Part shown: positions 3,001 through 42,066 of the stretch, piece after piece
How positions within the stretch are numbered: position 1 is the stretch's first letter
Layout: each line of letters begins with the position of its first letter
Virus record (IMG/VR): IMGVR_UViG_3300021376_000077
Coordinates: 1-54,827 of that record
DNA length: 54,827 nt
Direction: 5' to 3' (one strand)
Source: a virus
Program-made: the position numbers and the translations under genes
The notes under the pieces: model-generated
Databases searched by the model: none
The model's input: the letters and a program-made list of their open reading frames with translations, nothing else
What the model was told of the DNA's origin: nothing

Positions 3001-6000
3001 AATCAAAGCCATTGCTGTATTTGTTGCAGCTTTTTCACTTATTACACCGCCACCAGAAACACCCATAACTGCCGAGGTGTGTCTTTTAGAAATTTGCAGT
3101 AATCTTGTTAATTGTTTTAAAATGTCAGCAATTTTTAAAACTTGATCTTCAAAACCTTTTATTTCTTTGAATACGCCTTTGACTACTGGGGCAAAATCAC
3201 CAGGTATAGAAATCTTTACCATATCTGCTAATTCTTTTATAGAATCAAGACCTAGGCCACCAAATTTTTGAGATATGTCTGCTAAAATTGCTTCAAAACC
3301 ACCCTTTGGGTCATCCGTTAGAGCTTTAGCATTACGCAGTCTATTCATCATCGCTTTAAACCCTTCAGGAGCGTTTATTGTACTAGCTTTAACTTGCTGC
3401 ATTAATTCAACAATAGCCCTGACAAGCGATCTTGCAATTTCTGAGGTAACACTCACATACTCGGCTTTAACAACCGACTGAGCATCTAGCACACTGGTCT
3501 CAATGTCTGCGAGGTCATTTGCAATTTTTAATAAATCTTTTGCCCCCCGACCAACGAGAGAAACCGCATTTGCTGATAAAGTTTCAGAAATTTTTTGGTA
3601 CAGATCATCCAAAGCTTTAGTGGCTCTAGAGCTGAGGTCTGATGATTGTTCTTTAAGTTTTTTAGAAGGTTTGGTGACAATAGATTTAACTTCACCAACA
3701 ATATCTTCAGCTTCTTTGGCAATCGTCTTTGCTAATGTTTCATCGGTGGCTTCAGCAACTCTTGCGCCTGCATCCTCTGTTGTCGTTGTGGTTTTACGAG
3801 TCTTTTTTGCTGGCTTAGCTTCGCCTGCTTCAGCCGCAACTTTCTCTCCAGTTGTTTCTATCGTCTCAGATAGAGCAGTATCGGTTGCTTCAGCAACATG
3901 ACCCGTCGCTGTAGTAACTGCTGCTGTAGACTTGCTTGGACCTCTAGGAGCACCTGGCTTAGAAGCAACTGACTTTGTTTTGTTATAAATATCTTTTATA
4001 AAATCTTCTAATGAAATATTAAGAGCTGTTGTGCGATTTTTAAAATCATTCATAATTTTTGTAATATTAAATTTCTTTCCTAAGTTTAACCCCTTGAGTT
4101 CGCGTATTTTTGCGACCATTATTACCTGATCTGAACTGAGCGCTTTCAAAGCATCTTCTGTAGGAGCCACAGCTATGTTGTATATGTCTTCAGCAGAAAG
4201 AAGTGTCTTGGGAATCTTCGGCGCTCTTGGTTTTGTTCCAGTTTTTGGTGCACCGCTTGGAGCAGGGGTTGGTGCAGGTGCTGCTGGTGTTGGTGCAGGT
4301 GTTGGTGGGGTTGGTGCAGGTGTTGGTGGGGTTGGTGGGGTTGGTGTGCTGGCACCCCCTCCTGAGCCGCCCCCAATCGGTGGCTTCATCGGTACCGGGG
4401 GCCTGCCGCCCCCACCGCCTCCACCAGAACCTCTGCCTCCAGGAGGTCTTGGAGCGGGGACCACGGTGGACGGGTCAAAGCCGTATGCTCTCAACACATT
4501 AAAGAACTCCTCAGCCATTCCCCGACCAATAGCAACAGCCTCTGGCATCATTGATGCCATTGCATTCCCGGCACTATCTACAATCGTTTTATAAAAACCG
4601 CCAAGCCCAAGTAATTGTTGAGATGGGGACATCTGCGCAAGGGCTGCTTCTATCTGCATTCTTGCATCTGGCATCAGGCCAGAAAAATCTGGTTGTTGTG
4701 TTTTATCAATATTCAGTTTACGCAGTATTCTGTCAGATTCCTTTCTCTGTCTAGCCGAACCATCTGCAAGTCGGATTGCTTTTTGCAATTCTTGAAATTC
4801 TCTTTTTGTTGCTTTAAGGTAAAAATTATTTCCAATCTGTGTCAGTCTATTTCTAAATTTATATAAAAGATCAGAAGATGTTAGCAACTCTTCCCTAACG
4901 GGGATTAATTCCCTTTTAAGTTTTGAAAAAGGGTTTAAACTAAATGTTTTCATTGAAAAGAACGCAGACTTTAATTGGAAAAATGCACCTACCAAGCGAA
5001 CAATTGGACCCAACATTGCAACAAAAAGTATTGTTATACCCATAACTTTTTTGAATGTTGGGTCAAGTCCACGAACGAACTCTGCTAGTTTTTGTAAAAT
5101 TGGAACTATAAACCCTAATATATCATTAAGCACAGGAACAATTTCTCGGCTTAGTGCTTTCAAAGATTCTCTTGCTCTTTGGTATCTTACTTCGGCAGAA
5201 TTAAGAGATCTTTTTATTTCTTCTTCATACTTAGCAGCAGCCGTTGTTCCCTCGCCACCGCCTTGAACAGCGGTAAACAACACTCTACCGGATTCTGTTT
5301 GAATTTTACCAATTTGGTCATTACCTGCTTTTTGCTGCTCAACTAAATAGCGAGCAAAGTCACCTCTAGCTTTGGTAAATGAATCTGCAATTTGCTTGTC
5401 GCCAGATTGTGAAAGTCTTACAACATTAGACAAATCTTCAAATTTATCGATTTGCATTTTAGAATATTTATCTCCAAGGCCTGCTGCTGCAGCTCTGCTT
5501 TGGACATAGGTTTGCAACAGATTACTGAGTTCTCCCTCTGTTGTTATGGCTTCTTTTTGATTGATAGCAATTGCCTTCAGTCCGCTTGTCATTTGATCTT
5601 GGAATTGAGCAAGGTTTTGAATAGCAACTTCCATTCTTGGTCCTTGACGAACACCGAAAAGCCTTGCAAAAAATTCAAGAGTTCCTTGGGCACCCAAAGA
5701 GCCTCTCTTCATCGCATTAAAGCTGTCTGCTAATCTCTGTAGACTCTGAACTCCAACACCAGACTCAACATTAAAATCTTTATAACTTGCTTTTAGGGTA
5801 TCAATCATTTCACTGTTTTGCTTGGTCGCAGCAATCAATCTTTGTAGAGAAACTTTTACGGAGTTAGCGGAAGCACCCAATTGAAAACCAGCAGAGACCA
5901 TCGGCACCAGAAGAGCAGCAGCCTCGGTCATTGACAAACCAAAAGATGTTGAAGCAGCCGTTAGTTCTGGAAAGCCCTTTGCAATTTCTTTAAGAGATAG

Positions 6001-7026
6001 GGCAGTTTTGTTTTCAACCATGTTGAACATTGCCAACTGACCATTTAATTGTGCAATTACATCAAGATAATCCTCATTGCTCTGAACCAGCAAACCCTGA
6101 TCTCTTCTAACACGCAAAATATTTTGATACAAAGATTTTATGAATTCTTGTGATTGTGAAATATCAACATTACCAAGCTTTTCTACGGCAGCAGTGATAT
6201 CAACCAACCCAGCAAGGGCATCAATTGATTCAATACCCAACTCTGCGTAGTCACCAGCAAGACCCTGGGTTAACTCTCTTGCGACACCATATTTCAAACT
6301 TATTGCGTCAAGTTCTTTGCCAAGACTAGATATTGCTCCTTGAAGGGACATGACTTTGCGACCATTATCAATAAAAGCATTGCCATTTTCAATAACCTCA
6401 ACGCCTGTTCTTTTAGACGCTTCGGCAATATCTTCATATGAGTCACTAATAAGCTTTGTAGTTCTAATGGTTTCTGTTTCAAGCCTTCTATAATTGGCAA
6501 AAGAATTTCTAAGCCAGAAGGCAATCGGGGCGGTAAGTCCCATTGTAATCCGGTTGCCAGCATAAGAAACTTGGGTCGCCAGACTGTTATAGGCTCTCGC
6601 TTGAGCCCTAATATCTTGAGTTCTTACAAGTTTGCTTAAATCTTTTTCAACAGCCTGTTGTGCCCTTAAAGCAACAACAACATTATTAACAGATCTAGCC
6701 TGGGCGGCACTGGATAACGAGCCGGAACGAATTTGTCTTTCAAGCTCTTCTGCAACTTTTTTTGTATTGCGAAAGTGTCCAGCAAGCACAACTTGATGCT
6801 GCGAGGCAATCAATGTGCTCTGTGCAAGGTGGCTATTTGTAGCCGATGTTGATCTAAGCGCTTTTTCTAAAGCCTGCGCTGAGTTTGCTGTTTTTAAAGA
6901 CCTTGAGCCAAATACAGATAGCGAATGAACAACCTGTTGTACTTCTCTGGACATGTTGCCCAGAGCGGTTGTAAGAGCGTCATTGACAGTCGCTTCTACC
7001 CTAACTCTACCTGATTGATCAGCCAT
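1..7026 (-). CDS. Tail tape measure protein, N-terminal 2342 codons (runs off the left edge)
   Basis: Tape measure proteins set tail length and fill the tail tube before DNA ejection. Reading the minus strand from the ATG at 7026 gives an open frame to base 1 with no stop, so the C-terminus lies outside the window. About residues 170-480 look like the TP901-type tape measure core. A hydrophobic stretch lies near residues 660-685, a low-complexity Pro/Thr/Gly/Ala linker near 845-945, and the remainder is charged, Gln/Lys/Glu-rich and predicted coiled coil. The gene follows the tail chaperone pair, as expected. No clear Shine-Dalgarno precedes the ATG. The size (over 2300 residues) implies a very long tail if the usual proportionality holds. 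All plus-strand frames here are shadows. Confidence 0.9.
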   Translation of the reverse strand, partial: MADQSGRVRVEATVNDALTTALGNMSREVQQVVHSLSVFGSRSLKTANSAQALEKALRSTSATNSHLAQSTLIASQHQVVLAGHFRNTKKVAEELERQIRSGSLSSAAQARSVNNVVVALRAQQAVEKDLSKLVRTQDIRAQARAYNSLATQVSYAGNRITMGLTAPIAFWLRNSFANYRRLETETIRTTKLISDSYEDIAEASKRTGVEVIENGNAFIDNGRKVMSLQGAISSLGKELDAISLKYGVARELTQGLAGDYAELGIESIDALAGLVDITAAVEKLGNVDISQSQEFIKSLYQNILRVRRDQGLLVQSNEDYLDVIAQLNGQLAMFNMVENKTALSLKEIAKGFPELTAASTSFGLSMTEAAALLVPMVSAGFQLGASANSVKVSLQRLIAATKQNSEMIDTLKASYKDFNVESGVGVQSLQRLADSFNAMKRGSLGAQGTLEFFARLFGVRQGPRMEVAIQNLAQFQDQMTSGLKAIAINQKEAITTEGELSNLLQTYVQSRAAAAGLGDKYSKMQIDKFEDLSNVVRLSQSGDKQIADSFTKARGDFARYLVEQQKAGNDQIGKIQTESGRVLFTAVQGGGEGTTAAAKYEEEIKRSLNSAEVRYQRARESLKALSREIVPVLNDILGFIVPILQKLAEFVRGLDPTFKKVMGITILFVAMLGPIVRLVGAFFQLKSAFFSMKTFSLNPFSKLKRELIPVREELLTSSDLLYKFRNRLTQIGNNFYLKATKREFQELQKAIRLADGSARQRKESDRILRKLNIDKTQQPDFSGLMPDARMQIEAALAQMSPSQQLLGLGGFYKTIVDSAGNAMASMMPEAVAIGRGMAEEFFNVLRAYGFDPSTVVPAPRPPGGRGSGGGGGGGRPPVPMKPPIGGGSGGGASTPTPPTPPTPAPTPPTPAPTPAAPAPTPAPSGAPKTGTKPRAPKIPKTLLSAEDIYNIAVAPTEDALKALSSDQVIMVAKIRELKGLNLGKKFNITKIMNDFKNRTTALNISLEDFIKDIYNKTKSVASKPGAPRGPSKSTAAVTTATGHVAEATDTALSETIETTGEKVAAEAGEAKPAKKTRKTTTTTEDAGARVAEATDETLAKTIAKEAEDIVGEVKSIVTKPSKKLKEQSSDLSSRATKALDDLYQKISETLSANAVSLVGRGAKDLLKIANDLADIETSVLDAQSVVKAEYVSVTSEIARSLVRAIVELMQQVKASTINAPEGFKAMMNRLRNAKALTDDPKGGFEAILADISQKFGGLGLDSIKELADMVKISIPGDFAPVVKGVFKEIKGFEDQVLKIADILKQLTRLLQISKRHTSAVMGVSGGGVISEKAATNTAMALIGEELEASDIAGTAGPKISDTKGGVSKETKPSLAMTLQDRLRGVEKLQERLKDFDQQIQEKVQSILTLESNRDEAIANKIAELTTKAVSEYDSLVAQQPQIKNEISQIEAEQALISQQISEAIRSGNNEEMNKLKSLFEAKSQVRRSLIGQLSPTMRAEESIQAEAVAIVDKTIAEEKKIQKDLKDQKIKVRSDLISHQREIQSLTEKLRTKFGGDDASVIVSLREAMSPEGLIAEREAMAQRNKEQIEQYRKIARARFRGRQPRDKGFMGGDLRARLGSLETLTPEEMKIVKEGLVQDAKGVQNELRRLKQSKGLKNIKKLQEKLKKITQDVVEQERQQAEEHLKELETELSKIEKNLESKGVPDKDDRAGMASYRAYQKKANALKAQINSLTTEIAQKSNFENYKKILQQQIETEESNLKKINEEIQKLEQALRDLNKVFKQGFGLDLVDPATGKVLHAVTQAEATSTDLFLLMQTLQKNYETVAKQNILTTLELIQKDEQAILSALKDLGASSYYISGRAVSKGGVRITGDLIRNIASKLKITLPGFWQEAAKLFDTTDFSLKSVAQTLQFIQNLFERIPISDIERVYIDNLPQLASVEGLLQMDISTIKSTLQQFGRGRANFGAQALVPGGGSKQTAILSDILRTAAAAQGDAEAVSRAALAKKLAPYDKDDALAVAAEQSIKEEIDGFLTFYEQQRRQMILELVSSVQASKAIEFKEGQIASVQKKIKDLEKVRRDLQKHFNVLTTDPQIVEIDKAIEEHNLQIKTLNEEISKIKVIRKKASESYGGRLRLFKARLAARREDEPLYRDGEKIPGVTQLQMQSGKTPNPYLDIRPQQIPPEVAEARTQILNLIKKARSGKIDKDIADSLIGALKTTIEVYQEAKQKSFTREFASLEEMANEIRSRTKPPIKGTTDYLIVELFKKIEKAGLSLETMTASQIQHYVKQLKAIQQEAFYKSLSYPDLFAAMQPLMDIPFRPLEEFKKQPTDLPRSARPKS
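4292..4342. repeat. 21-bp tandem repeat inside the tape measure linker
   Basis: On the plus strand a 21-bp unit (GGTGCAGGTGTTGGTGGGGTT) occurs twice without change at 4292-4312 and 4313-4333. A 9-bp partial copy and related GGTGTTGGT units flank it. It encodes the Pro/Thr/Ala-rich linker of the tape measure protein. The unit is a multiple of three, so copy number could change without breaking the frame. Confidence 0.85.
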
Positions 7027-9341: not shown

Positions 9342-9730
9342 GATTGTTCCACAACAGTTCTAAGGCTTGCAATAATGTGATGTTTTTTGCCGTTCCAACC
9401 AAATTTTGGCTGTATGGTAATAACTTCAAATGGTCCTGCTTCCAATACATTGCCATATCTATCTTTTAAATTGTATATTCTAGATGTAGTTATGACAGTA
9501 TTAGAGTACTGACCAGGGACAATGATTTGCAGAACAGGAATAAAGTCTTGATACGGTGCGGTTCTAACCTTGGCACCAGCAGAGAACTGATCTTCTGGCG
9601 AGACGGCAATAACCGGGACTGTTTTGTTATATGTGAAAGTATAATACTTTTGACCAGCATCGTTGGTCGTGGTTGTTTTTAAGTGAACATCGGCGGTTTG
9701 ATTATACCGAATAAAGCCAGCGACAGTCAT
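9338..9730 (-). CDS. Probable head closure (stopper) protein
   Basis: 130 aa, beta-rich. It contains the pattern expected of head-closure proteins: an N-terminal strand pair (TADVHLKTTTTNDAGQKYY), a central segment on input parameters (TAPYQDFIPVLQIIVPGQY) and a C-terminal region (GPFEVITIQPKFGWNGKKHH). These proteins close the connector channel after DNA packaging and dock the tail. It lies between the head-tail adaptor and the neck gene and is translationally coupled to both. Confidence 0.55.
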   Translation of the reverse strand: MTVAGFIRYNQTADVHLKTTTTNDAGQKYYTFTYNKTVPVIAVSPEDQFSAGAKVRTAPYQDFIPVLQIIVPGQYSNTVITTSRIYNLKDRYGNVLEAGPFEVITIQPKFGWNGKKHHIIASLRTVVEQS

Positions 9731-10659
9731 TACACAACATAATCCATAATGAAAAGAGTGTAATCCATCAACAACGTATCAACTTCAATATTACCGGTTG
9801 ACTCATAAAAATTATCTTTCATGCTAAACTTTACGACATCAAGATCTACTGAGTAAATCCCATGTCTTCTGTAGGCTGAGTCATCATTCATCGCGTCAGC
9901 GATTAAAAGAATGGCCGCTTGTTTTATATTTTCTGGAACATACTGCCACCCGTAATCGCCCAAGATTGAATATTGGGATGTCTTTTTAAAACGGTTGCTT
10001 AGCATTGTTATGGTTGTGCTTTCCAGTAATGAATTTTTCCATTTAATATAAAATGATGAATTAAAATTAAACGGTTGATATTTTACTTTTTCCATATTAT
10101 CCAAAGTTACCTGAGTTGAGTCATGCAAATTCTGTTCTTCAGATGTCCCAACATCAATCTTCACTGTTTTTAAATTAAAGATTGGTAATGGTAGATGTAG
10201 TTGTTTATAACCATTACCCTCGATTTCAACTGTTTGATTGTAATAAGGTTCAAAATTTTGACCTGTAAAAGCGTTAATAATATTTTTAATTCTTTTTTCA
10301 ATTTTTTCAAATTTATTGCTATTCTGTGGTTCAAGTTCCGGGTATTCCGCAAAGAACTCTTCGTATGTCACATAAGGAACATAGACATTAAAAATTATAG
10401 ATTGCGTGTAGGCCGTATTGGCTACAGTGTATGAAAAATCTGCTCTGTGCTTACCCGCCGATTTTAAAATATACAGACCAGAGGCTTGTTGACCGTATGT
10501 GATGTTATAAATGCCAGCAGAGGCTCTTGTGGCATTTGTAGGACCAGATATAAGATCACCAAACTCATGATAGAGAGAAACAGATACGGCATTGTTGGCA
10601 GGGTCCGCCGGAAGAGTCAGAGTTATGGTTTTAGATGTGTTTATTTTGACTTCATCCAT
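9730..10659 (-). CDS. Head-tail connector/adaptor with an extra N-terminal beta domain
   Basis: 309 aa. Residues about 95-310 resemble gp6-type head-tail adaptors: a helical start (YVTYEEFFAEYPELEP, then a lysine-rich helix), central beta strands, and a C-terminal helix after GWQYVPENIKQAAILLIADAM. The first about 90 residues form a separate beta-rich, Ig-like domain. The adaptor would bind the portal ring and receive the stopper protein. It is the first gene of the morphogenesis block, and a promoter-like -10 box lies 9 bases upstream with no Shine-Dalgarno. The portal and capsid genes that usually precede it are absent here; enzyme cassette A takes that place. Confidence 0.65.
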   Translation of the reverse strand: MDEVKINTSKTITLTLPADPANNAVSVSLYHEFGDLISGPTNATRASAGIYNITYGQQASGLYILKSAGKHRADFSYTVANTAYTQSIIFNVYVPYVTYEEFFAEYPELEPQNSNKFEKIEKRIKNIINAFTGQNFEPYYNQTVEIEGNGYKQLHLPLPIFNLKTVKIDVGTSEEQNLHDSTQVTLDNMEKVKYQPFNFNSSFYIKWKNSLLESTTITMLSNRFKKTSQYSILGDYGWQYVPENIKQAAILLIADAMNDDSAYRRHGIYSVDLDVVKFSMKDNFYESTGNIEVDTLLMDYTLFIMDYVV

Positions 10660-10745: not shown

Positions 10746-11552
10746 TTATTTTTTGAAAAAGTTGAACCATTTTTTTTCTTTTTGCGCCTCTAAATCGGCT
10801 TCCCTCTGTTTTTTTCTATAAATTTGGTTTCTGTCTGGGGAAACCAGGCCGCCCTCTCCGAGGCCAGAATTAACAATAAATCTAAACATTGATTCATTGC
10901 CCCATAAAATTCTTTTAAAATTATTTTTTCTTATAATTGGCACCATAAACTGTATTGGAGTACCTGCAGGTATTGTAAACTCTTTGTCAGTAGTTATATT
11001 TAATACAACGTGTATTTGATTATAAAAATCTGTGTGGACAATACCTGGTACAACAGTATAGTTTGGATTGGGTTCATGCAGAATTGGTAGCACCATTAAA
11101 GAAACACCTTTTGGTGTTCTAAATCTCCAAGGAGAAACAAGTTTAGGAAATTGTCCAGTTGGTATTGCTTTTATATTTGTTATAGGACAACCATGAACGC
11201 TGTGACTCTCAAAGCCAGAAACTTCAAAAGAACCAAAGTGCCCGTCCAATTGTCCTAATTTTAATTCAAATGTTTTACCATTAATAGATGGTCTTACTGT
11301 AACATCTGTCCAAAGGGGAATTACAAAACCATTTGTAATATAATCGTAGGTTCCTTGGCATCTCCTAAGAGAACCTTTCATCTTTGGTAAATCTTTCCAC
11401 CAAGATGGAAGTTGCTCGGATGGAAGAAATGGTGGTATGTCCATTAAGCGATTGTCTTGTGGAACGATTAATACTTCTCCCCTTTTTGGGGTTGGTAAAT
11501 CTTTTTTATAATATAAAATTTTATATTTGAATTTGTCTGAGCGCTTCGGCAT
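10746..11552 (-). CDS. Cassette A: conserved 268-aa protein of unknown function
   Basis: 268 aa from the ATG at 11552, exactly the length of its cassette B homologue at 39539-40345. Starting at 11567 would add five residues not matched in the homologue. Conserved features are WWK near residue 51, LRRCxGTxDY near 62-71, a PWxF segment near 141, and PNYxVxPGxVHTDxY at about 163-177, followed by a strand and the turn IPAGTP. The HTD triad resembles the HxD metal ligand pair of cupin-type iron enzymes, but no distal conserved His was found, so catalysis is unproven. The rest is beta-rich with a basic, helical C-terminus. It may match a catalogued domain of unknown function such as DUF6065, which I cannot verify. 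It overlaps the halogenase end by 32 bases. Confidence 0.75.
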   Translation of the reverse strand: MPKRSDKFKYKILYYKKDLPTPKRGEVLIVPQDNRLMDIPPFLPSEQLPSWWKDLPKMKGSLRRCQGTYDYITNGFVIPLWTDVTVRPSINGKTFELKLGQLDGHFGSFEVSGFESHSVHGCPITNIKAIPTGQFPKLVSPWRFRTPKGVSLMVLPILHEPNPNYTVVPGIVHTDFYNQIHVVLNITTDKEFTIPAGTPIQFMVPIIRKNNFKRILWGNESMFRFIVNSGLGEGGLVSPDRNQIYRKKQREADLEAQKEKKWFNFFKK

Positions 11553-12984
11553 GATCAACTGTTGCATGTCCTGTCTGATTTAGCTTCGCCTCGGAGACAA
11601 GATAGTTTACCTGCTCTTCGACATCGTATGAGTATATCATTTCAAATGCCCTCTGTGCGGAAAGAAGACCCTGCCCCTGTGCCACATGATAAAAATGAGG
11701 AACTAAAAACATTTCATAATTATTATTACTAATATCATATAAAAATGGCGGACGCTCCTGCCAAAGTTCTAATAGTTCAACAAGATAATCTGGTTTTTCC
11801 ATATGTTTTTGATCTCTCCACATTTGTGAATCCACTCTATCGGAAATGTAATGTAAACATATCATTGCACATATATTTTCCATCATTTTATTCATTTTTT
11901 TATTATATGAATCTTGTAACTTTTTAGAGTTAATATCATAATTACCCAAATTTTGAGTTAAACATCTAATTTGTTGAATTGTTGAACCAATACTTGTGGC
12001 CTCTAGAGGCTCCACAAAAGCTGCCGCTAAGCCAACAGCTACGCAGTTCTTCACCCAAAATTTTTCAAGATGCCCTGGATCAAATCTAAAGGCTCTCGCT
12101 GGTTCAACTTGTCTTTCAAGAAGTTTGGAAACTTCCTGGATTGCTTGATCATCGGTGCAGTGAAGAGATGAATAAACATATCCATTACCTCTTCTGTCCT
12201 GTGTCGGTATTTCCCATACCCAGCCATTTGGCATAGCCCTAGCCCTTGTATAAGGACGTATTTGACCAGAAGGATCAGATTCAGTAGGGAATGCAATAGC
12301 AGAATCCATTTGCATATATTTCTTATAAGAGTTCCATTTTGTATTTCCAAGTTTGGACATCAAAATTCTTTTAAACCCAGTAGCATCAATCCAGAAATCT
12401 GCATCAACAATATCGCCATTGCCAAGAGAAACGGATTGTATATAACCATTTTCACAATTTAAATTTATATTTTCAATTTCAGAATCAATCATTTTAATAT
12501 TTCTAAATATACAAATATTTGTAAAATATTGATTTAATTTGAAAGTATCAAAATGAAACTGATTAACTGACTGATGTGGATAATTAGCATTAACTTTATT
12601 TTCAATTAAAGCTCTTGATGTAATATTTTCTGTGAGGGTTTTATTGTTCTTAATAAGGCCATTATAGAGAGCAAAATAACCAATAGGTTCCTCTGTTGCA
12701 GCATGTGCAACGCTATGGAAATAATCCGGGGTACGGTTGGTCCAGTTTTCAAAACGAATTCCATATTTATGCGTAGCTCTAGACTGCACTAACATGTCTG
12801 CTAATGGAATTTCACACATTTCCATGAAACTTCGCCAGTGCTCGGTTGAGCCTTCGCCAACACCAATAATGCCAATCTTAGAAGAAGATACACAAGTAAT
12901 TTTAAATTTAGGGAAAACTTTTCTTAGGATCAAGGCTGAAATTAGCCCAGCAGTGCCGCCTCCAATAATGGCAATTTTTTTCAT
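11521..12984 (-). CDS. Cassette A: flavin-dependent halogenase (tryptophan halogenase family)
   Basis: 487 aa, close to the usual length of about 500-540. The family uses FADH2, O2 and halide to make hypohalous acid, which a lysine passes to an aromatic substrate. Visible are the FAD-binding GGGTAG near residue 8, the GVGEGST loop at 41-47, the catalytic lysine K73 in ATHKYGIRFENW, the diagnostic WxWxIP at 255-260, and the active-site glutamate E328 in FVEPLEATSIGS. Related phage enzymes are known, including the cyanophage halogenase VirX1. The ATG overlaps the previous stop as ATGA. No flavin reductase gene is nearby, so reduced flavin must come from the host. Substrate unknown; the neighbouring adhesins are candidates. 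Confidence 0.93.
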   Translation of the reverse strand: MKKIAIIGGGTAGLISALILRKVFPKFKITCVSSSKIGIIGVGEGSTEHWRSFMEMCEIPLADMLVQSRATHKYGIRFENWTNRTPDYFHSVAHAATEEPIGYFALYNGLIKNNKTLTENITSRALIENKVNANYPHQSVNQFHFDTFKLNQYFTNICIFRNIKMIDSEIENINLNCENGYIQSVSLGNGDIVDADFWIDATGFKRILMSKLGNTKWNSYKKYMQMDSAIAFPTESDPSGQIRPYTRARAMPNGWVWEIPTQDRRGNGYVYSSLHCTDDQAIQEVSKLLERQVEPARAFRFDPGHLEKFWVKNCVAVGLAAAFVEPLEATSIGSTIQQIRCLTQNLGNYDINSKKLQDSYNKKMNKMMENICAMICLHYISDRVDSQMWRDQKHMEKPDYLVELLELWQERPPFLYDISNNNYEMFLVPHFYHVAQGQGLLSAQRAFEMIYSYDVEEQVNYLVSEAKLNQTGHATVDHAEALRQIQI

Positions 12985-14051
12985 ATAAATTTATATTTAA
13001 TTATTTTCTCTATAATATTTGTATCAAAATTAGTTATTAATTTATTATTTATTACTAATAGTTCTATATCATCCATTGAATTAGTGTCTAGATCAATATT
13101 ATTTACAATACACAATGTATAAACAGAAGACTCTAAAAATGACTTTTCTTTGTACAAAATAGAATTATCAATCGTAAAAGATTTTTTACTATTCTTAAGT
13201 AAAGAATTAAGTGTTTTATATCTAATATGAGATAAAAAATAATTTTCTAATGATTCTGGAAATATATTTTTTTCTTCAATTTCTTGATATATTTCATTAT
13301 TACCCTGTATATATCTGGCAACTCTCATATCTGTTTCCAAGGAATTTATTTCACTTAAAATATCATTTATACCAAGTGCATTTATAAATGCCATTGCTTT
13401 TACGGCAGGACCCTCTTCACTGGAAAATGGAGACTTTGAAACCTCTGACCATTCAAAAATTTGTTTTAAAATACCAGAAAATGTTCTTGAATATGTATTT
13501 ACAATTTGAGTACTTTTATCTTTGAAATCTTGATCTTTTGTATCGGCACGAAAGATATGACCTATACCGCTTGCTGAAAGAACTACCTTCATAGAAATAA
13601 TGTCATATCTAGTTGTTCTTGGATAAAAAGGAACCGGACCAAATTTGTTATAGTCACATCTAACAAATTCTACTCCATTTGATAATGAACCAGTTCCGCC
13701 GTATGTTGATGGTGGTGTGCCAGCAGACGGCAATTCAATTGAATTCCAAAAATTATAAAATGAAAAAGGATGTGTTGTTGATCCTTGAGCAATATCTTGA
13801 AAATTCTCATATGCAAGCATTTGCATAATATAATCACCATTATCACCAACAATTTGATAATCATGATATCCATGCATAGGTGATTTTTCTTTAAAGCAAA
13901 GCAAAACACCATTATCTGTTTGATAATAGTCAACATCAGGTGCTTCAATCAGTCCACCCGTTGTTTTTGCAAATGCTTTAACATCTCCACTTAGATTTGC
14001 TAGATGGAAAAAATCATACTCGAATGGATTAATTTCATTAATATTTTTCAT
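12981..14051 (-). CDS. Cassette A: fusion of a 239-aa-type protein with a GxDP-type helical domain
   Basis: About 356 aa from the ATG at 14051 (ATGA overlap with the hydroxylase stop). No known family recognised. By eye, residues about 190-285 match the C-terminal part of the cassette B 239-aa protein: shared RTxxxxL, EWS, PFxS, EIxxxxxDM, and R[YF][IL][QK]G. The last about 65 residues match the cassette B 82-aa protein: FLESSVYTLCIVNNIDLDT against LLEREIYFLCLKTGVDPEE. In cassette B these two genes are adjacent, so this looks like a gene fusion. It is extremely AT-rich. A structural partner or substrate-presenting protein is possible; function unknown. Confidence 0.8.
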   Translation of the reverse strand: MKNINEINPFEYDFFHLANLSGDVKAFAKTTGGLIEAPDVDYYQTDNGVLLCFKEKSPMHGYHDYQIVGDNGDYIMQMLAYENFQDIAQGSTTHPFSFYNFWNSIELPSAGTPPSTYGGTGSLSNGVEFVRCDYNKFGPVPFYPRTTRYDIISMKVVLSASGIGHIFRADTKDQDFKDKSTQIVNTYSRTFSGILKQIFEWSEVSKSPFSSEEGPAVKAMAFINALGINDILSEINSLETDMRVARYIQGNNEIYQEIEEKNIFPESLENYFLSHIRYKTLNSLLKNSKKSFTIDNSILYKEKSFLESSVYTLCIVNNIDLDTNSMDDIELLVINNKLITNFDTNIIEKIIKYKFI

Positions 14052-14641
14052 ATAAACCACATCACTAAGCTATATTTTACACCAGATGTTACTGGGTGTG
14101 CTATATGGGTGTAAGGGAAATTAGACGGAAACAAAACAAGTTCATTTGTGTTGAGTTTTATTGTTTTTTTGAAATAAGGAAATTCAAGTTCTCCACCTTC
14201 AAAAGATTCTCCAAAACATCCAACTAAACTCAAAACTCTGCTTGTGTCTGGAGAGTGGTCATGGTGTGCGTGATATTGCGAATTATTCTGATATTTTAGC
14301 AATTGCATTCCCTGAATTGACTGTAGATGTAAATCAAAGCAACGTCTATAATCCCATATACATTCATCAATATTGAAAAATATTTCTTTGTATTGTTTTG
14401 CTAAATCTTTAATATCATCAACAACAGTATCATCAAGCAGTGGCCAAACATCGGCTTCCATGGAGCTTCTATATTCTGACTCAGCAGTATTGCCAATATC
14501 ACCAGTAACAGATCTATTCCAAGAAATATACGGCCATGATTTTTCCGTTTCTTTTTCTAAATTTTCTATAAAATCTGATACATCAAAATAATTTTTATAG
14601 ACAAAAACGCACGGCATCTCTTCATATTTTTCAATTAACAC
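14048..14641 (-). CDS. Cassette A: 2-oxoglutarate/Fe(II) dioxygenase, prolyl 4-hydroxylase-like
   Basis: 197 aa from a GTG at 14641, chosen because the resulting start aligns with the cassette B homologue; a TTG at 14650 is also possible. The family hydroxylates amino-acid side chains using 2-oxoglutarate, O2 and Fe(II). The iron ligands are H126 and D128 in YHAHHDHSP (YxxHxD pattern) and H182 in AHPVTSG. K189 in GVKYSLVMWF occupies the 2-oxoglutarate-binding Arg/Lys position of P4H enzymes. GGELEFP near 149-155 matches the conserved jelly-roll strand. It overlaps both flanking genes, so it belongs to one operon with the halogenase. Adhesin proline-glycine or histidine residues are plausible targets, by context only. 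Confidence 0.88.
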   Translation of the reverse strand: MLIEKYEEMPCVFVYKNYFDVSDFIENLEKETEKSWPYISWNRSVTGDIGNTAESEYRSSMEADVWPLLDDTVVDDIKDLAKQYKEIFFNIDECIWDYRRCFDLHLQSIQGMQLLKYQNNSQYHAHHDHSPDTSRVLSLVGCFGESFEGGELEFPYFKKTIKLNTNELVLFPSNFPYTHIAHPVTSGVKYSLVMWFI

Positions 14642-15032
14642 AGTATTCAAAGCTTTCTAACTCTTGATTGTCAATTACAATTTTACAAGATTTTTTGCCA
14701 ATTTCCGATGAATAGATACAGAATTTTGCACGATGTTTTTCTAATAGAAAGGGTTCATGTATATTATCATTAACTAATAATTGAATATTTTTATTAAAAA
14801 TAATATAATCATTATGATACAGAATATTTTGATGAAAATATTGTTTTATATTTTGAAAATAAGAACAATTTCTAAACTCGGGAACTTCAATAATTTCTAC
14901 TTTATCAAAATTACTTTTAGCTTTTTCAATATCTTTACATAAACCAATATTAATTGGTAAATTATTTTTTTTAGATAAAACTGAAGCCTCATCAATTAGA
15001 TTTTCTGAAGGGCAAAACACAACTCTTTTCAT
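14631..15032 (-). CDS. Cassette A: CPSE-motif protein, function unknown
   Basis: 133 aa, no family recognised. It is homologous to the 146-aa cassette B protein at 38518-38958. Both begin with a strand followed by CPSE (VVFCPSENLIDEA and SVYCPSEEFLEEA), then KNxLxIxIG, and both end in a His/Arg-containing strand region. Predicted alpha/beta N-terminus and beta-rich C-terminus. The invariant cysteine near residue 7 could be functional. The order GxDP protein, CPSE protein, hydroxylase is the same in both cassettes. No Shine-Dalgarno is visible; the ATG lies one base after the TAA of the upstream gene, so coupling is likely. Confidence 0.75.
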   Translation of the reverse strand: MKRVVFCPSENLIDEASVLSKKNNLPINIGLCKDIEKAKSNFDKVEIIEVPEFRNCSYFQNIKQYFHQNILYHNDYIIFNKNIQLLVNDNIHEPFLLEKHRAKFCIYSSEIGKKSCKIVIDNQELESFEYCVN

Positions 15033-15033
15033 A

Positions 15034-15267
15034 TTAAAGAGAGTTCAGTTTATTGTTAATTTCTTGATATTTTTTGTACGCATCATATAGATTCGCTTGT
15101 ACACTTGGGGTTTCCCAATCTTTAAAATCTTCGATTTTAGAGAAATCATAAGTATCAGGATCTAAACCAAGTATAACCATTGAAGAATATATTGTAGATT
15201 CAAAACCATTTTTTGCTGCGCTCAATGCAGCTTTTTTTTGTTCATTTGAAAGTGAAAAATTAATCAT
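15034..15267 (-). CDS. Cassette A: small helical GxDP protein
   Basis: 77 aa, two predicted helices joined by the loop LGLDPDTYD near residues 34-42. Four relatives occur in the window as separate genes or a fused domain (38285, 41808, 43126 and the C-terminus of the 12981-14051 protein). All share an alpha-helical start with KxAxL, an aromatic-rich helix end, G[LIV]DP, and a second amphipathic helix ending in K[LF][DN]xL. An AGGAGG Shine-Dalgarno precedes the ATG by 3 bases. It directly follows the His-rich adhesin gene, as the 87-aa relative does for the second adhesin. A role as adhesin or fibre assembly partner is inferred from this pairing. Confidence 0.75.
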   Translation of the reverse strand: MINFSLSNEQKKAALSAAKNGFESTIYSSMVILGLDPDTYDFSKIEDFKDWETPSVQANLYDAYKKYQEINNKLNSL

Positions 15268-15274
15268 TTTCCTC

Positions 15275-16822
15275 CTAAGAATTGATAATTGTTATAACAG
15301 ATCCACCGTTGGCGGAAACACCACCAACAGAACCTCCACTGACATTTGTAGTAGCCGAAATGGGCGTAGCGCTGTCTGTAACTATGATTATACCACCGCC
15401 TCCACCTGATTTACCATTTGTACCAGCCGTAGTGGACCCATTTGTGCCACTAGATCCTGCGCTACCACCAGGACCACCCACACCACCAGGATATGTTCTA
15501 TGACCAACATGAGCCGTTGGACCGCCGATTCTTGCTCTTCCTTGATGATGTTGGCCGTGCAAATCATGCCTTGCTCTAGAAGCATGTGTAATGTGAGAAC
15601 CTTTGGCCCCTACAACGTGATGTGCATCTGCTTCATGGTAATGATTATGCCCAAGAGGACCGGTTGTTGTATTAACATTATGTGCTACAGCACCACTATG
15701 ACCTAATTGACCTCCTGCTGTGTGATCAATGCCATTTTGATGAAAAAAACTAGCGTCAGCACCAACTGGTGCATGACCTGTTGACGCAACGCCATGATGT
15801 GGATTGCTCCCGTGGTGGTGATTGTGAGGATGAACCGGTGTCGCATCGTGTACGGTATAGGCCCATGTTCCGTGAGCATGAGGGGCATATGTTGCAGGGG
15901 TATGACCGCTATGAGGTAAGCCCAATGGATAGGCCCCACTTGAACCAATGCTTATGGTTGGTCCATGCGTTCCATCGCCAGAAATATAATGAGCATGATT
16001 TTGTGTATAGTGAGCAATTGACGCAGCGGGGGCGGTCGTTCCAGTATTACCAACATTACCTAATGTAGCACCAGAGCCAACTGCAATGCTTCCGCCAACC
16101 GTTGCGTTTGATCCTTGAGCTTTAATAACACCAGAACCAGTAATTGATTTGGCACAGATTAAAACAACTGCACCACCAATTCCACCATCACCCTTGATTG
16201 CAGCTGGAACATCAGTTCCTTTAACTCCGTTTGATCCGCTGGCACCCTGTGTTCCAGGGCCACCGGCAGCACCAATATTTCGGCCTGGTAAAGAGCCAGG
16301 TTGTCCTGGCCAAGATGTTGGAGCACCTCCTGCGCCGGTACCGTCTGCAGCAAGCGTTAGCCCTCCCTCAACACCATCTTCTCCACCAGCACCGCCAGAA
16401 AAAGCAATAAAAGCACTATTAGAATCTACATAACCACCAAATATAATATTTTCTAAAGCGTTAAGAACATAAGATGGTGCTTGTGAGGCAATATATGTCG
16501 ATCCCGCAGCATTACCGCCAAGAGATCCTATAGTATTAGAGGCAATGGGGGCTGTTCCTCTTAGAGTTGCAGTTGAAACTGTTGTACCAGAAGCAACGCC
16601 AAGATTTCCATCTAATGTCAAAGTTCCTTTAACAAATACTTTAAAACCGTTTGTGTTTAAATGGCAATTAGAATTAATTGTTAAGTTATTATAATACATG
16701 TCTCTGCTAAGAGAAATATTGGCTACAATAACAACATCGCCATCTGTTCCGACACCGTATACTGAATCATTGCCTATTCTTTGGACTTTTGCTGGCGAAT
16801 TATATTTATCTATTCCTGGCAT
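15275..16822 (-). CDS. Gly-rich and His-rich adhesin (candidate receptor-binding protein)
   Basis: 515 aa. The N-terminal about 90 residues form a beta domain with RIGNDSVYGVGTDGDVV and LNTNGFKVFVKGTLTL, shared with the 239-aa neighbour and with the second pair at 43398-45726. Residues 140-260 are glycine-rich with many PG pairs (WPGQPGSLPG, GGPGTQG). Residues 271-441 are histidine-rich, about 34 His in 170 residues, many as HxH or HH. A further polyglycine stretch covers 446-478. Glycine-rich stretches like these form packed polyglycine II helices in gp38-type tip adhesins, and HxH motifs bind iron in some fibres. Downstream lie the GxDP protein and enzyme cassette A, possible modifiers. Substrate and receptor unknown. 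Confidence 0.75.
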   Translation of the reverse strand: MPGIDKYNSPAKVQRIGNDSVYGVGTDGDVVIVANISLSRDMYYNNLTINSNCHLNTNGFKVFVKGTLTLDGNLGVASGTTVSTATLRGTAPIASNTIGSLGGNAAGSTYIASQAPSYVLNALENIIFGGYVDSNSAFIAFSGGAGGEDGVEGGLTLAADGTGAGGAPTSWPGQPGSLPGRNIGAAGGPGTQGASGSNGVKGTDVPAAIKGDGGIGGAVVLICAKSITGSGVIKAQGSNATVGGSIAVGSGATLGNVGNTGTTAPAASIAHYTQNHAHYISGDGTHGPTISIGSSGAYPLGLPHSGHTPATYAPHAHGTWAYTVHDATPVHPHNHHHGSNPHHGVASTGHAPVGADASFFHQNGIDHTAGGQLGHSGAVAHNVNTTTGPLGHNHYHEADAHHVVGAKGSHITHASRARHDLHGQHHQGRARIGGPTAHVGHRTYPGGVGGPGGSAGSSGTNGSTTAGTNGKSGGGGGIIIVTDSATPISATTNVSGGSVGGVSANGGSVITIINS

Positions 16823-16823
16823 A

Positions 16824-17543
16824 TTAAACCAACTGCGAGTAGATTACTGTTCCGTTTTGGCACCCAGTACCACCAACAACATTTGTGCTTACATTAGCAG
16901 GGAGCGTTGCCTGAGCTGATATTATTATTACAACTCCACCGCCTCCTCCTCCAGAACCGGCAGTCCCTGGTGCGTTAATTGAAGCATTGACAGTGGTTGC
17001 ATCCGTTGATATATATCTAGCACTTAATATTACAACGCCACCACCTGCCCCAGAAGCACCGCCTGCCCCGCCTCTCAAGAATAATGGATTTATTTGAGAG
17101 GCGGTTACTGAGTACCCGCGAACTGCCTGAACCGGCTGATACCAGTACCCACTCTGAGTTGTTTTATCCCCTGTTCCCCCAGCGCTTGTGGTAGGTGCAG
17201 TGGCATTTGCTGTTGCACTATTTCCTCCAAGTGCATTTATAATGTTTCCCCCAGCGGTGGCTCCACCGCCAGCAATACTTCCATTTGCACTAGACCCTGT
17301 TGCAAACCCGATCACAGCACCGTTACGTAATGTTAAAAGATTTTTAACAAACACACGATATCCATTTGTTATTAATTGTATATTTGCTTGAATTTCTAAA
17401 TTAAAATAATACATATCGGATGTCAAAGTAGTATTTGTAGAAATTGTTACAGAACCATCAGAACCAGACCCATAGATAGGGTCTGGAGCATCAATGAATG
17501 ATGCAAAAGCATTGGCTGCTGGATATTTTATAAAACCTGTCAT
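16824..17543 (-). CDS. Gly-rich adhesin-like protein
   Basis: 239 aa, a shorter relative of the next gene. It shows the same N-terminal beta domain: DPIYGSGSDGSVTI near residue 21, then a strand with MYYFNLEI, then LITNGYRVFVKNLLTLRNG. A glycine/alanine-rich second half follows, with SLRGGAGGASGAGGG-like runs and a hydrophobic VVIIISA strand near the end. It lacks the histidine-rich insert. Its counterpart at 45016-45726 stands in the same order before a large adhesin. It probably forms part of the same tip complex. One base separates it from the 515-aa gene. Confidence 0.7.
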   Translation of the reverse strand: MTGFIKYPAANAFASFIDAPDPIYGSGSDGSVTISTNTTLTSDMYYFNLEIQANIQLITNGYRVFVKNLLTLRNGAVIGFATGSSANGSIAGGGATAGGNIINALGGNSATANATAPTTSAGGTGDKTTQSGYWYQPVQAVRGYSVTASQINPLFLRGGAGGASGAGGGVVILSARYISTDATTVNASINAPGTAGSGGGGGGVVIIISAQATLPANVSTNVVGGTGCQNGTVIYSQLV

Positions 17544-20745: not shown

Positions 20746-22689
20746 CTATTCATCATTACTAAGCATTACGCTTATGTAATGAACCAAAAAAGCAACAGAT
20801 GTTGCAATTAAGGTAATCTTTCTAGTATCCCCAGAAAGTGTTGCAAAAACAATAATAGTGCTAGATATTGTAAATGCAAGAGCAGCGGTTTCTTTGCTGA
20901 ACTTTTTAATAAAATTCCATATACTGAATTTTTTCATTCCATCCTCCGTGTATTTATAAATACTATTTGTGGTGTAACTTTCATCATCACCATTTGGCCC
21001 CTCAATCTCGGGAGCCTCCTCATCCTCCTCTTCCCCCTCCTCTTCTTTTTTAAAAGCAGAATTGCTGTCTGATGGCTTGGGGGAGTTTAAACCTCCGCCA
21101 GAACCTCCTGAGCGTGGTTCTGGGCCTCTGACGGGGGCTGCGGCTGCTGCGGTGGCAATGCTTGCTATAGCAAGAAGAGTCCTTCTTTCTTTAACTGGAA
21201 TTGCCGACCCTGTTGGTACATAATCATCAAAACCATCTGCATAAATGTTTATTTCTTCTTCAAAAGCTTCTCTGACTTCTGCCGGGGCATCCTGAACAGC
21301 TTCAATAATTTGAGTTTTTTCTTCTTCTGTTATATCTGAAGTATCAATTGATTGAAAAACCTGTGTGGCTTGTTCTTGCGTTATTTCTTGCAAAACATCT
21401 TTATTTGTAGCCAAATCAACAGCTTCTTCTGTTGTTATAGTTTCTGTAATTTCAGGAATAGTTGTCGTTGTTGGTATTGTTGTTGGGATTGGTAGTGTTG
21501 TTGTCGTTGTACTTGACAATGTTGTTGTCGTTAAACTTGGTGTAATAATCAGTGTAGTGGTAGTGTTTGGAATAGTCGTTGTGGAGGTTGTTGTAGATGT
21601 TGTCGTGGTTTGTTGCACCGTGGTTTCTGGTACCGTGGTTGTTTGCTCTACCGTGCTTGGCGATAACAATATTGTTGTACTGGTGGTTTGAGGAATAGTA
21701 GTAGTCGTTGTAGTTGTTGTAGTGGTAGTAGTGGGCGGAGTAGGATCAATCACCACGGCATCAACAGTTGCCTGGGGTCCGTACATACAGGACCCAGCAC
21801 CCTCTCCGACGCATGGGGCTGTCCCTGCCTGAATCTTAAATCTCACTGGTCCGTATCCAGTTGTTCCAGGCCACATCCATGGGCCGAGGCTGTATGAAGT
21901 ATTTACGGCGTATGTCCACACCCCCCAACCACCAGCTTCTACCCCATCAACCAGGTCATGAAACAAAATGTTGTACATATATGGGGCAGTGTTGCTTGGT
22001 GTTGGGGCGTTCCAACTCAAAACAACATTTCCATCGTTGTCTGCTACCGCTGTGAGATTTTGAACAGAGTTAAAGTATGGCGCTATCGTTGTGGTTGTAG
22101 TACTGGTAGTAGTCGTGGTTGGCGCAACGACAGTCTTCGTAAAAGCAGAGGCGGGAACCACCTGCCATCCCGAACCTATATCCCAGTAGAGAGTCGTATT
22201 GGCTCCGCCACCATTTTCGTAATACCAATATGTGATTGGCTTGGAAACTCCAGCGCTAAAAGAAACGTACTGTGACGGGTTGCCCCAGCCGCCCTTGTCA
22301 ACCCAGTTGTTGTCTATCAAAACATTGTCTATATAGAGTTTGGTTCCGTCATCCGCAGCGGGCAAGAACCTAAACGAGCCAGTCACGGGCAGGGTTATGT
22401 GACCTTCATACTTAACAATAAAGTCTTCGTACATGTTGAACAGCGGTGCATTGTCAAAGTTCTGATTAATCTGAGTGAGAGTGGTGGTTCCAACGACCGG
22501 GCGACCGCTGACCGTGGGGAGTGGAGGCGAATTGTTGTAGCCAAAGTTGTTGTAAACGGTTACACTAAGTCCTGGTTCGGCTTGGGCAGAAATACCGCCA
22601 ATTCCTACCATAGGCGAAATAAATGAGCCGCCAATCGTCGCAAGTAAAATCCAGCTGCCACTTCTGCGGCGAAGTTTCCCGGGGGACAT
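20746..22689 (-). CDS. Surface protein: PA14 domain, fibronectin III domain, Thr-rich linkers, C-terminal membrane anchor
   Basis: 647 aa. The first about 37 residues form a Sec signal peptide (RRRSG, hydrophobic core, AQA before EPG). Residues about 38-190 resemble a PA14 domain (VKYEGHITLPVTGSFRF, DDGTKLYIDNVLIDN). About 210-310 form a fibronectin type III domain (LTAVADNDGNVVLSWNAPT). Long Thr/Ser-rich stretches follow near 195-205 and 315-415, then an acidic helical region, an RRTLLAIASIA segment, a Glu-rich linker, and two hydrophobic C-terminal helices. It would be exported and anchored in the membrane with a carbohydrate-binding-like head. It is the first gene of the leftward transcript. 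Superinfection control, lysis or envelope modification are possible roles. Confidence 0.75.
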   Translation of the reverse strand: MSPGKLRRRSGSWILLATIGGSFISPMVGIGGISAQAEPGLSVTVYNNFGYNNSPPLPTVSGRPVVGTTTLTQINQNFDNAPLFNMYEDFIVKYEGHITLPVTGSFRFLPAADDGTKLYIDNVLIDNNWVDKGGWGNPSQYVSFSAGVSKPITYWYYENGGGANTTLYWDIGSGWQVVPASAFTKTVVAPTTTTTSTTTTTIAPYFNSVQNLTAVADNDGNVVLSWNAPTPSNTAPYMYNILFHDLVDGVEAGGWGVWTYAVNTSYSLGPWMWPGTTGYGPVRFKIQAGTAPCVGEGAGSCMYGPQATVDAVVIDPTPPTTTTTTTTTTTTIPQTTSTTILLSPSTVEQTTTVPETTVQQTTTTSTTTSTTTIPNTTTTLIITPSLTTTTLSSTTTTTLPIPTTIPTTTTIPEITETITTEEAVDLATNKDVLQEITQEQATQVFQSIDTSDITEEEKTQIIEAVQDAPAEVREAFEEEINIYADGFDDYVPTGSAIPVKERRTLLAIASIATAAAAAPVRGPEPRSGGSGGGLNSPKPSDSNSAFKKEEEGEEEDEEAPEIEGPNGDDESYTTNSIYKYTEDGMKKFSIWNFIKKFSKETAALAFTISSTIIVFATLSGDTRKITLIATSVAFLVHYISVMLSNDE

Positions 22690-38284: not shown

Positions 38285-38521
38285 TTGGTTACCATCAATC
38301 GCTCCGTCGCCATGATGGACTCGCTCAAGCAGGAGCTGTTTACGCTGTGCATCCAGAATGGCATTGACCCAGAGACGCTGGACATCGAAAATCCAGATTC
38401 CGACCCAGCAATAGCGGCGTCTACTCCTCACGAGCATAACTTCTATGCAATTCGTAGAATTAAGCAGGTATGCGAGGGATACGTCTTGGCTAAAGGGAAG
38501 TTTGATAATCTAGCCGAGTGA
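38285..38521 (+). CDS. Cassette B: small helical GxDP protein
   Basis: 78 aa from a TTG at 38285; ATGs at 38312 and 38315 would remove the first nine or ten residues, but relatives have longer N-termini, which supports the TTG. Helix, then CIQNGIDPETLDIENPDSD, then a second helix ending AKGKFDNLAE. It is closest in arrangement to the 87-aa gene at 43126 (NGIDPDDIDISNPFEN, LQGKIDSLS). Its stop overlaps the GTG of the CPSE protein (GTGA), as the small protein precedes the CPSE gene in cassette A. Confidence 0.7.
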   Translation: MVTINRSVAMMDSLKQELFTLCIQNGIDPETLDIENPDSDPAIAASTPHEHNFYAIRRIKQVCEGYVLAKGKFDNLAE

Positions 38522-38958
38522 TTCGTTCGGTTTACTGCCCTTCTGAGGAGTTCCTTGAAGAGGCGCAATCTTTAGCTGAAAAAAATAGCCTGTCTATAAC
38601 TATTGGACGGTCGGAATCTATGGAAAATATAGATTTTGACGAAACCAGGGTATGCATTGTCCACATCCCCACAATTCACATTTTTAATATTTCATCGCCG
38701 ACCCTTCCGATTGGACTGATGCAGGCTTTTGGGTATACGTGTGATTACATTGATTTTAAGAAAGATGGCAATACTCCGATACTGAAAGTCAGGTATGGGC
38801 ATAATTTTTCAGAAGAAATAAAAATACAGCCTTTTTATCTAGAGTCCCATATAGCAAAGTATTCGCATAGATTTTCTTCGGCAGGCATACATGATGTGAG
38901 TATTGTTGTTGCCGGGGAAGAATATGTCAAAAATTACACATTTGAGGTGACGGAGTGA
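38518..38958 (+). CDS. Cassette B: CPSE-motif protein, function unknown
   Basis: 146 aa from a GTG in a GTGA overlap. It begins MIRSVYCPSEEFLEEAQSLA followed by EKNSLSITIG, matching the cassette A protein at 14631. The C-terminal half is beta-rich with HIAKYSHRFSSAGIHDVSIV. No catalytic motif recognised apart from the invariant Cys near residue 7. Its stop overlaps the next GTG, so it is translated together with the hydroxylase. Confidence 0.75.
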   Translation: MIRSVYCPSEEFLEEAQSLAEKNSLSITIGRSESMENIDFDETRVCIVHIPTIHIFNISSPTLPIGLMQAFGYTCDYIDFKKDGNTPILKVRYGHNFSEEIKIQPFYLESHIAKYSHRFSSAGIHDVSIVVAGEEYVKNYTFEVTE

Positions 38959-39542
38959 AGATAGAAGTTTTAGCGCCATGCATCAACTATTACACAGAGG
39001 TATATGACGCTTATCCATTAATAGAAATGCTTGAAGAGGAGGCCGATAAATCGTGGCCTCGGATGGAGTGGGCGAGGTCATCTACCGGGCAGGCTGGTAA
39101 TACATCTGTAAATGAGTACCGCTCGTCAATGGAAATGTCCTTGCTACCGATTATGACCGAAGAGGACATACCGGAGTTAAACCACATAAAAGATGGGTTT
39201 CATAAAATATACAGTGAAATAGATAAGTGCGTCTGGGACTACAGAAACCAGTATGAATTATTTATTTCTCGTCACGAGCCATTTAGTGTTTTGAGGTATG
39301 AGAATAGCGCTGAATACCATATACATACAGACTCGTCCCCAGAGAACGGAAGAGTCATGAGTATGGTTGGGTACTTTAACGACGGATATGAGGGCGGAAA
39401 ATTGGAGTTCCCATTATTTAATGTAGAAATTCAGCCAGAGGCCGGCTCTGTAATCCTCTTTAGTTCGGCATATCCATACCAACATGCTGCACACCCAGTA
39501 ACGAAAGGCACCAAGTATTCCTTGGTGACGTGGTTCCAGTGA
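38955..39542 (+). CDS. Cassette B: 2-oxoglutarate/Fe(II) dioxygenase, prolyl 4-hydroxylase-like
   Basis: 195 aa from GTG (GTGA overlap). The iron ligands are H124 and D126 in EYHIHTDSSPENGRV and H180 in HAAHPVTKG; K187 in GTKYSLVTWF would bind 2-oxoglutarate. GGKLEFP near 137-143 is the conserved core strand. It keeps EYRSSME and KSWPRMEW from the cassette A enzyme, well above chance, so the two are clear homologues. GC content is much higher than in cassette A. It overlaps the next gene in GTGA. Confidence 0.88.
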   Translation: MKIEVLAPCINYYTEVYDAYPLIEMLEEEADKSWPRMEWARSSTGQAGNTSVNEYRSSMEMSLLPIMTEEDIPELNHIKDGFHKIYSEIDKCVWDYRNQYELFISRHEPFSVLRYENSAEYHIHTDSSPENGRVMSMVGYFNDGYEGGKLEFPLFNVEIQPEAGSVILFSSAYPYQHAAHPVTKGTKYSLVTWFQ

Positions 39543-41805: not shown

Positions 41806-41807
41806 AA

Positions 41808-42056: not shown

Positions 42057-42066
42057 GGCCCGGATT

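Follow-up and report, generated by a model that had tools for sequence, protein, structure and literature searches.

What do a flavin-dependent halogenase (FDH) and a hydroxylase-like oxygenase do inside the virion gene cluster of a virus? The question is raised by IMG/VR record IMGVR_UViG_3300021376_000077, a 54,827-base viral sequence that we analysed over its whole length (the window). Six open reading frames (ORFs) on the minus strand at 10746-15267, here termed cassette A, encode in order GxDP, CPSE, a 2-oxoglutarate (2OG) oxygenase, 'fusion', the halogenase and '268' (Table 1). On comparative sequence analysis, we consider this cassette to be probably (roughly 60%) a protein-tailoring operon dedicated to the tip of the phage's own tail adhesin.

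An original prediction, made from the letters alone, described six overlapping genes between an adhesin and the head-tail connector. All six are present, with a Gly-rich pair of adhesin genes (15275-17543) on one side and a head-tail adaptor on the other. The genes overlap by 20, 13, 4 and 47 bases, except that GxDP and CPSE lie 1 base apart. The length of 268 amino acids given for the last protein counts from its second ATG, and the first ATG gives 273. Because a second, paralogous cassette that went unreported (cassette B, 38518-42786, plus strand) faces its own adhesin pair, the cassette first described is one of two in this genome. Gene by gene, the four core genes of A and B are 31-52% identical. 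That this genome holds two adhesin pairs along with two cassettes supports adhesin tailoring. Chance clustering was ruled out, as dozens of distinct contigs show the same gene order, adhesins included. A short Cys-rich ORF (42914-43174), positioned between cassette B and adhesin B, has homologues at about ten further halogenase loci.

Both enzymes belong to the families originally assigned to them. Halogenase A matches the tryptophan halogenase family PF04820 with 348.6 bits against a curated cut-off of 21 and contains the GxGxxG and WxWxIP motifs, K73 and E328. In an alignment of relatives, the Gly positions of GxGxxG, Lys73, Glu328 and Ser are invariant in 67/67 halogenases, as are the first Trp and the Pro of WxWxIP; the second Trp is found in 58 (Phe in 9) and the Ile in 66. 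The P4H-like 2OG oxygenase scores above the cut-off of PF13640 and shares with the PKHD/P4H-type hydroxylases of that family the HxD...H...K motif, formed in cassette A by H129-x-D131 and H185 (iron triad) and by K192 (basic residue for 2OG). Among 58 aligned relatives, H129 is conserved in 58, D131 in 57, H185 in 54 and K/R192 in 58. The catalytic residues are therefore kept in the window copies and in their relatives, as had been claimed. The nearest solved structure to the oxygenase, 3dkq, is a weak match (E=0.005).

The closest PDB matches of halogenase A by sequence are the bacterial enzymes Xcc4156 (6y1w) and BrvH (6frl), both at E about 1e-59 and neither from a phage or adhesin context (PMC5945002, PMC7336383). 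Alignments with most true Trp halogenases end near residue 414 of halogenase A, while those with BrvH and Xcc4156 reach residues 436-442. BrvH lacks the Trp-holding loop, has a solvent-open site, refuses free Trp and has an unknown natural substrate; its authors likened it to the peptide halogenase MibH (PMC5945002). MibH, an FDH of the NAI-107 lantibiotic that halogenates peptide-borne Trp only, is a mechanistic precedent by description, differing in its bacterial pathway for a ribosomally synthesized and post-translationally modified peptide (RiPP) and in having a small peptide rather than a virion adhesin as substrate (PMC5945002). A broad range and a large open site are likewise described for the phage enzyme VirX1 (PMC8407142). 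By analogy, the open sites of BrvH and VirX1 fit, without proving, a protein substrate for halogenase A.

Is the neighbourhood of enzymes and adhesin a general one? When viral contigs were scanned with '268' and halogenase pairs, 101 loci were obtained. After removal of near-duplicates, and with halogenase loci taken as the best 80 by similarity, 45 distinct halogenase loci had enough upstream sequence, both window loci included. The adhesin pair lies within 8 kilobases (kb) of the halogenase in 45/45, a linkage that speaks for this clade because the loci were the best 80 by similarity. The adhesins are upstream on the same strand in every case except cassette B. Co-occurring at these loci are '268' (44), the 2OG oxygenase (43), GxDP (32) and CPSE (31). 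A search based on the adhesins also found related adhesins at loci where no halogenase is near. CPSE is retained at most of these loci, together with one to three '268' genes and one or two genes for 2OG enzymes; different genes stand there instead of the halogenase, and some of these look, by eye, like glycosyltransferases or methyltransferases.

Single loci in these scans show further arrangements. Two loci without a halogenase (L151:7995-17297 and L147:8001-16184) encode two 2OG enzymes and as many as three '268' copies, alongside glycosyltransferase-/methyltransferase-like genes; their adhesin tips have different repeats (NEIRLVEARLN-like; YPGNNYSY/NYGSNPT-like), as though the make-up of the tip varied with the enzymes encoded. 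A related halogenase at L073 has other Gly-rich proteins upstream, and L276 encodes four halogenase-like genes behind three Gly-rich proteins. At L258, cassette and adhesin lie on a contig of 72.8 kb from a Gammaproteobacteria metagenome-assembled genome (SP183); this may hint at the host or may be a phage contig that was binned, and it is not enough to name a host. Homologues of the window adhesins in named phages were not found by tblastn.

The adhesins of the halogenase loci have a conserved N-terminal domain and a Gly-rich C-terminus; between the two lie Gly-rich stretches and a middle part that is hypervariable. By description, not by sequence homology, they resemble the S16 gp38-type polyglycine adhesins, in which hypervariable segments lie between Gly-rich motifs of a Gly-rich distal tail-fibre tip; these differ in having no described enzyme cassette and no His-rich tip (PMC6851490). 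In adhesin A, 34 of 35 His residues fall within residues 271-441. Across these cassette adhesins, the densest 180-residue segment averages 19% His and contains a median of 94% of the protein's His, whereas the short partner protein adh2 has a mean of 0.7%. Adhesins at loci with a halogenase have a median His content of 6.4% (range 2.7-11.6%, n=63) versus 2.1% (0-2.9%, n=26) at loci without one, with an area under the curve of 0.998. Tyr shows the opposite trend.

The tips turn over quickly, with tip identity often at 25-35% where adh2 identity is 0.85-0.97, while His content and the halogenase persist. Where adh2 was at least 75% identical (89 pairs), the similarity of the tips correlated more with that of the halogenase (rho 0.64) and '268' (0.67) than with that of CPSE (0.50), 2OG oxygenase (0.51) or adh2 (0.17). 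This order is not what block exchange by itself predicts, because CPSE and the 2OG oxygenase usually lie between tip and halogenase. The co-variation of tip sequence with the halogenase and '268' is suggestive and goes no further, since the pairs are non-independent and the differences modest.

A second, independent family of Gly-rich adhesins shows a similar arrangement. VirX1 (PDB 6QGM) is, like halogenase A, a phage PF04820 halogenase with the catalytic Lys and Glu, and was published as a small-molecule iodinase with no native substrate given (PMC8407142). In its source, cyanophage Syn10, genes for Gly-rich proteins directly precede two halogenase genes, which are followed by a '268' homologue and then an oxygenase series. 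Like that of cassette A, the VirX1 halogenase gene thus comes straight after Gly-rich tail proteins; a '268' homologue and a 2OG/JmjC oxygenase run follow it. This run encodes seven 2OG/JmjC-type proteins, at least three of them above the Pfam cut-off (2OG-Fe(II) oxygenase families, JmjC_2) and the others weaker. JmjC_2 is a family of ribosomal-protein hydroxylases. VirX1 differs in being about 29% identical, in a different adhesin N-terminus and in that no CPSE or GxDP homologue was recognised. Seven distinct named phages encode the Syn10-type Gly-rich protein, and in each of them a halogenase lies 1-3 kb downstream; in S-CREM1 a '268' homologue annotated as triphosphate nucleotidohydrolase is followed by 2OG and JmjC genes. 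The arrangement also recurs in viral contigs, where halogenase-adjacent proteins contain 2.2-5.2% His versus 0-1.6% in distant homologues without a halogenase, a rough comparison because these homologues are remote.

Several observations weigh against adhesin tailoring or against His as its target. In the adh2 tree, loci with and without a halogenase are split by one branch (Shimodaira-Hasegawa-like approximate likelihood ratio test, 98), so the Mann-Whitney p-value of the His contrast is not to be read as if loci were independent. Linkage and co-inheritance alone could come from block recombination. In phage S-SRM01 a tail-fibre-like protein and a gp38-type adhesin (L297:11494-12582) flank the halogenase, and the tip of this adhesin is rich in Trp and Cys and devoid of His; in DSL-LC01 the halogenase follows collagen-like genes with products below 1.5% His. 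Moreover, the halogenases of P-SSM2, Syn1, S-PM2, S-MbCM6, S-B64, S-SCSM2R and HTVC008M lie away from adhesin and tail genes. We also know of no precedent for halogenation of protein His by an FDH; bromohistidine does occur in nature, in a sponge (PMC8659048).

These exceptions narrow the claim. That all phage halogenases are adhesin-linked is rejected: the seven named phages restrict the link to certain clades, and phage halogenases probably serve more than one purpose. The original prediction had singled out the occurrence of its genes in phages without nearby adhesins as telling against it; distant phage halogenases do occur in this way, which in part counts against it, and within this clade the 45/45 linkage stands. 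His content is likewise rejected as proof of the substrate, with the labels on one branch and both S-SRM01 and DSL-LC01 breaking the rule. The adhesins of these two phages are His-poor and rich in Trp, Cys or Tyr, and the common factor across halogenase-linked adhesins may be aromatic tips in general. Among the targets first proposed (Tyr, Trp, His or Pro), His is the first candidate in this family, on the basis of a single phylogenetic contrast, and for that reason a weak assignment. In the pelagiphage HTVC008M (L005:1971-4844), a run of 2OG/phytanoyl-CoA-type oxygenases lies beside neck genes, with the halogenase about 4 kb further on, by the terminase.

The strongest alternative, which we regard as unlikely, is that halogenase and oxygenase are auxiliary metabolic genes of advantage to the cell under infection, acting on a free small molecule (Trp, indole, a pigment or a signal), with the adhesin site as an insertion hotspot. 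Several cyanophage halogenases are indeed encoded at a distance from tail genes, in the company of photosynthesis, tRNA and sugar genes. Published proposals for phage halogenases, including cyanophage prnA, are metabolic or antibiotic (PMC2984593, PMC10452541), and VirX1 accepts many small aromatics in vitro (PMC8407142). However, the order adhesin-GxDP-CPSE-2OG-halogenase-268 is kept, with short overlaps, over deep divergence; adhesin tip composition tracks the cassette; the loop that holds Trp is missing from one of the nearest solved relatives; and no further pathway genes are present.

The enzymes might instead act on another macromolecule, either a host envelope component or receptor or a tail protein such as adh2, and so block superinfection or aid release. 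Their position within the structural cluster and the sugar- and methyl-transfer-like genes of related loci without a halogenase are compatible with such a role, which we nevertheless consider improbable: no signal or secretion feature was noted in the enzymes, and the compositional link is with the adhesin tip, not with adh2. Equally improbable is a His-rich tip that serves as a metal-binding module (Zn, Fe, Ni or Cu), its association with the halogenase reflecting the shared ancestry of one phage lineage. Proteins rich in His and Gly do bind metals, as in the literature on the Nereis jaw, and the single tree split fits shared ancestry. Shared ancestry is less easily reconciled with the same trend in the second adhesin family and with rapid tip turnover at persistent His content. 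A RiPP-like system, in which a small cassette protein such as GxDP is modified and the adhesin is a bystander, would suit small conserved proteins adjoining FDH and 2OG enzymes and the example of MibH (PMC5945002), yet is very improbable, given that the GxDP proteins of the window have 0-1.2% His and no leader/core layout by eye, that GxDP is missing from about 30% of loci and also stands behind adhesin B apart from the enzymes, and that inspection of the cassette ORFs (ORFs of at least 60 amino acids listed) revealed no short leader/core precursor.

For tailoring of the adhesin tip, the remaining cassette proteins offer candidate helpers. GxDP, CPSE, 'fusion' and '268' of cassette A match no Pfam family above cut-off. 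The '268' protein is predicted to adopt a dUTPase-like beta-clip fold (AlphaFold2 predicted local distance difference test (pLDDT) score 88.8), and its top Foldseek matches are dUTPases (E=2e-4; template modelling score by target length 0.53-0.73). Despite this common fold, it differs from dUTPases in its score against PF00692 (15.4 bits, cut-off 22), in its location in a tail cassette and in motif III, where the column of the catalytic Asp holds His in 53, Asn in 11 and Asp in 1 of 65 aligned sequences. A dUTPase function was therefore rejected on the motif and the score. CPSE is predicted to combine a short alpha/beta N-terminus with an Ig/TIG/filamin-like beta-sandwich (pLDDT 94.8; Ig-like Foldseek matches). 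From these models, CPSE and '268' could be adaptors. GxDP homologues occur directly behind adhesin B, in cassette B and in 32/45 loci, in keeping with a putative tail-fibre chaperone or connector. Residues 192-289 of 'fusion' A match residues 137-237 of its cassette B counterpart (BLASTP E=1.6e-5), and its C-terminal stretch resembles the GxDP protein by eye.

Behind adhesin tailoring stand, as observations, the gene content, the conservation of catalytic residues, the folds, the linkage and the occurrence together with His-rich tips; beyond these, we infer the reaction, residue, order of events, adaptor roles and benefit. The original prediction of modified virion proteins holds in part: of the readings considered, modification of the adhesin is the one that comparative genomics supports best, through the 45/45 linkage, the second adhesin family and a halogenase closest to open-site enzymes that refuse free Trp. 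In the mechanism we propose, the 2OG oxygenase would hydroxylate side chains in the low-complexity Gly/His/Asn/Tyr-rich tip before virion assembly, and the FDH would halogenate tip side chains, also before assembly, with His as first candidate, followed by Tyr and Trp. CPSE and '268' would present the tip as non-catalytic adaptors or chaperones, and GxDP would act as an adhesin assembly factor. Host and water would supply reduced flavin, 2OG, Fe and halide. The gain would be a tip chemistry (hydrophobicity, metal affinity, stability) that differs from the encoded sequence.

A broader proposal is tentative and may well not hold: that aquatic tailed phages halogenate and hydroxylate their own adhesin tips, here by an FDH acting on His imidazoles, and that the same principle accounts for the native substrate of VirX1. 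We found no description of halogenated or hydroxylated phage adhesins, or of an adhesin-linked cassette, in the literature covered, which leaves out subscription journals; the novelty of an adhesin-tailoring cassette rests on this negative and on the mechanism being right. If so, viruses would widen the chemistry of receptor-binding proteins past the 20 amino acids through encoded enzymes, adding a layer of host recognition unreadable from adhesin sequence alone. Viral halogenases of the VirX1 kind, at present classed as auxiliary metabolic genes, would gain a native role, and the cassettes would be a source of FDHs that act on protein side chains, possibly His.

Table 1 Cassettes A and B, their adhesins and the adjoining head-tail adaptor in the window (aa, amino acids).
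Feature	Position	Strand	Basis or relation
Head-tail adaptor, downstream of cassette A	9730-10659		phrog_442, E=8e-8
'268' protein A, 273 aa	10746-11567	-	AlphaFold2, Foldseek to dUTPases, motif column
Flavin-dependent halogenase A, 487 aa	11521-12984	-	PF04820 E=7e-104; PDB relatives 6y1w, 6frl
'fusion' protein A, 359 aa, GTG start	12981-14060	-	BLASTP to cassette B 42067-42786
2OG-Fe(II) oxygenase A, P4H/PKHD-like, 200 aa, TTG start	14048-14650	-	PF13640 E=1.5e-12
CPSE protein A, 133 aa	14631-15032	-	AlphaFold2, Foldseek
GxDP protein A, 77 aa, directly after adhesin A	15034-15267	-	homologues at 43126-43389 and 41808-42056
Adhesin A, 515 aa: N-terminal domain, Gly-rich segments, His-rich tip, Gly-rich C-terminus	15275-16822	-	sequence, composition, homologues
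adh2 A, short Gly-rich adhesin/anchor protein, 239 aa, no His	16824-17543	-	homologue of 45016-45726
CPSE protein B, 146 aa	38518-38958	+	32% identical to A
2OG oxygenase B, 195 aa	38955-39542	+	43% identical to A
'268' protein B, 271 aa	39530-40345	+	48% identical to A
Halogenase B, 487 aa	40342-41805	+	52% identical to A; PF04820 E=2e-98
GxDP protein, cassette B, 82 aa	41808-42056	+	homology
'fusion' homologue, cassette B, 239 aa	42067-42786	+	homology
GxDP protein behind adhesin B, 87 aa	43126-43389	-	homology
Adhesin B, 538 aa, 5.8% His	43398-45014	-	36-42% identical to adhesin A, segment-dependent
adh2 B, 236 aa	45016-45726	-	44% identical to adh2 A

Elsewhere in the window, a long minus-strand ORF, a probable tape measure, runs off the left end (1-7026). 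Because this ORF is incomplete and no terminase or capsid gene was recognised in the window, the record looks like a fragment. A further minus-strand ORF of 647 amino acids with no PHROG match (20746-22689) separates the adhesin-side genes from the plus-strand tail fibres.

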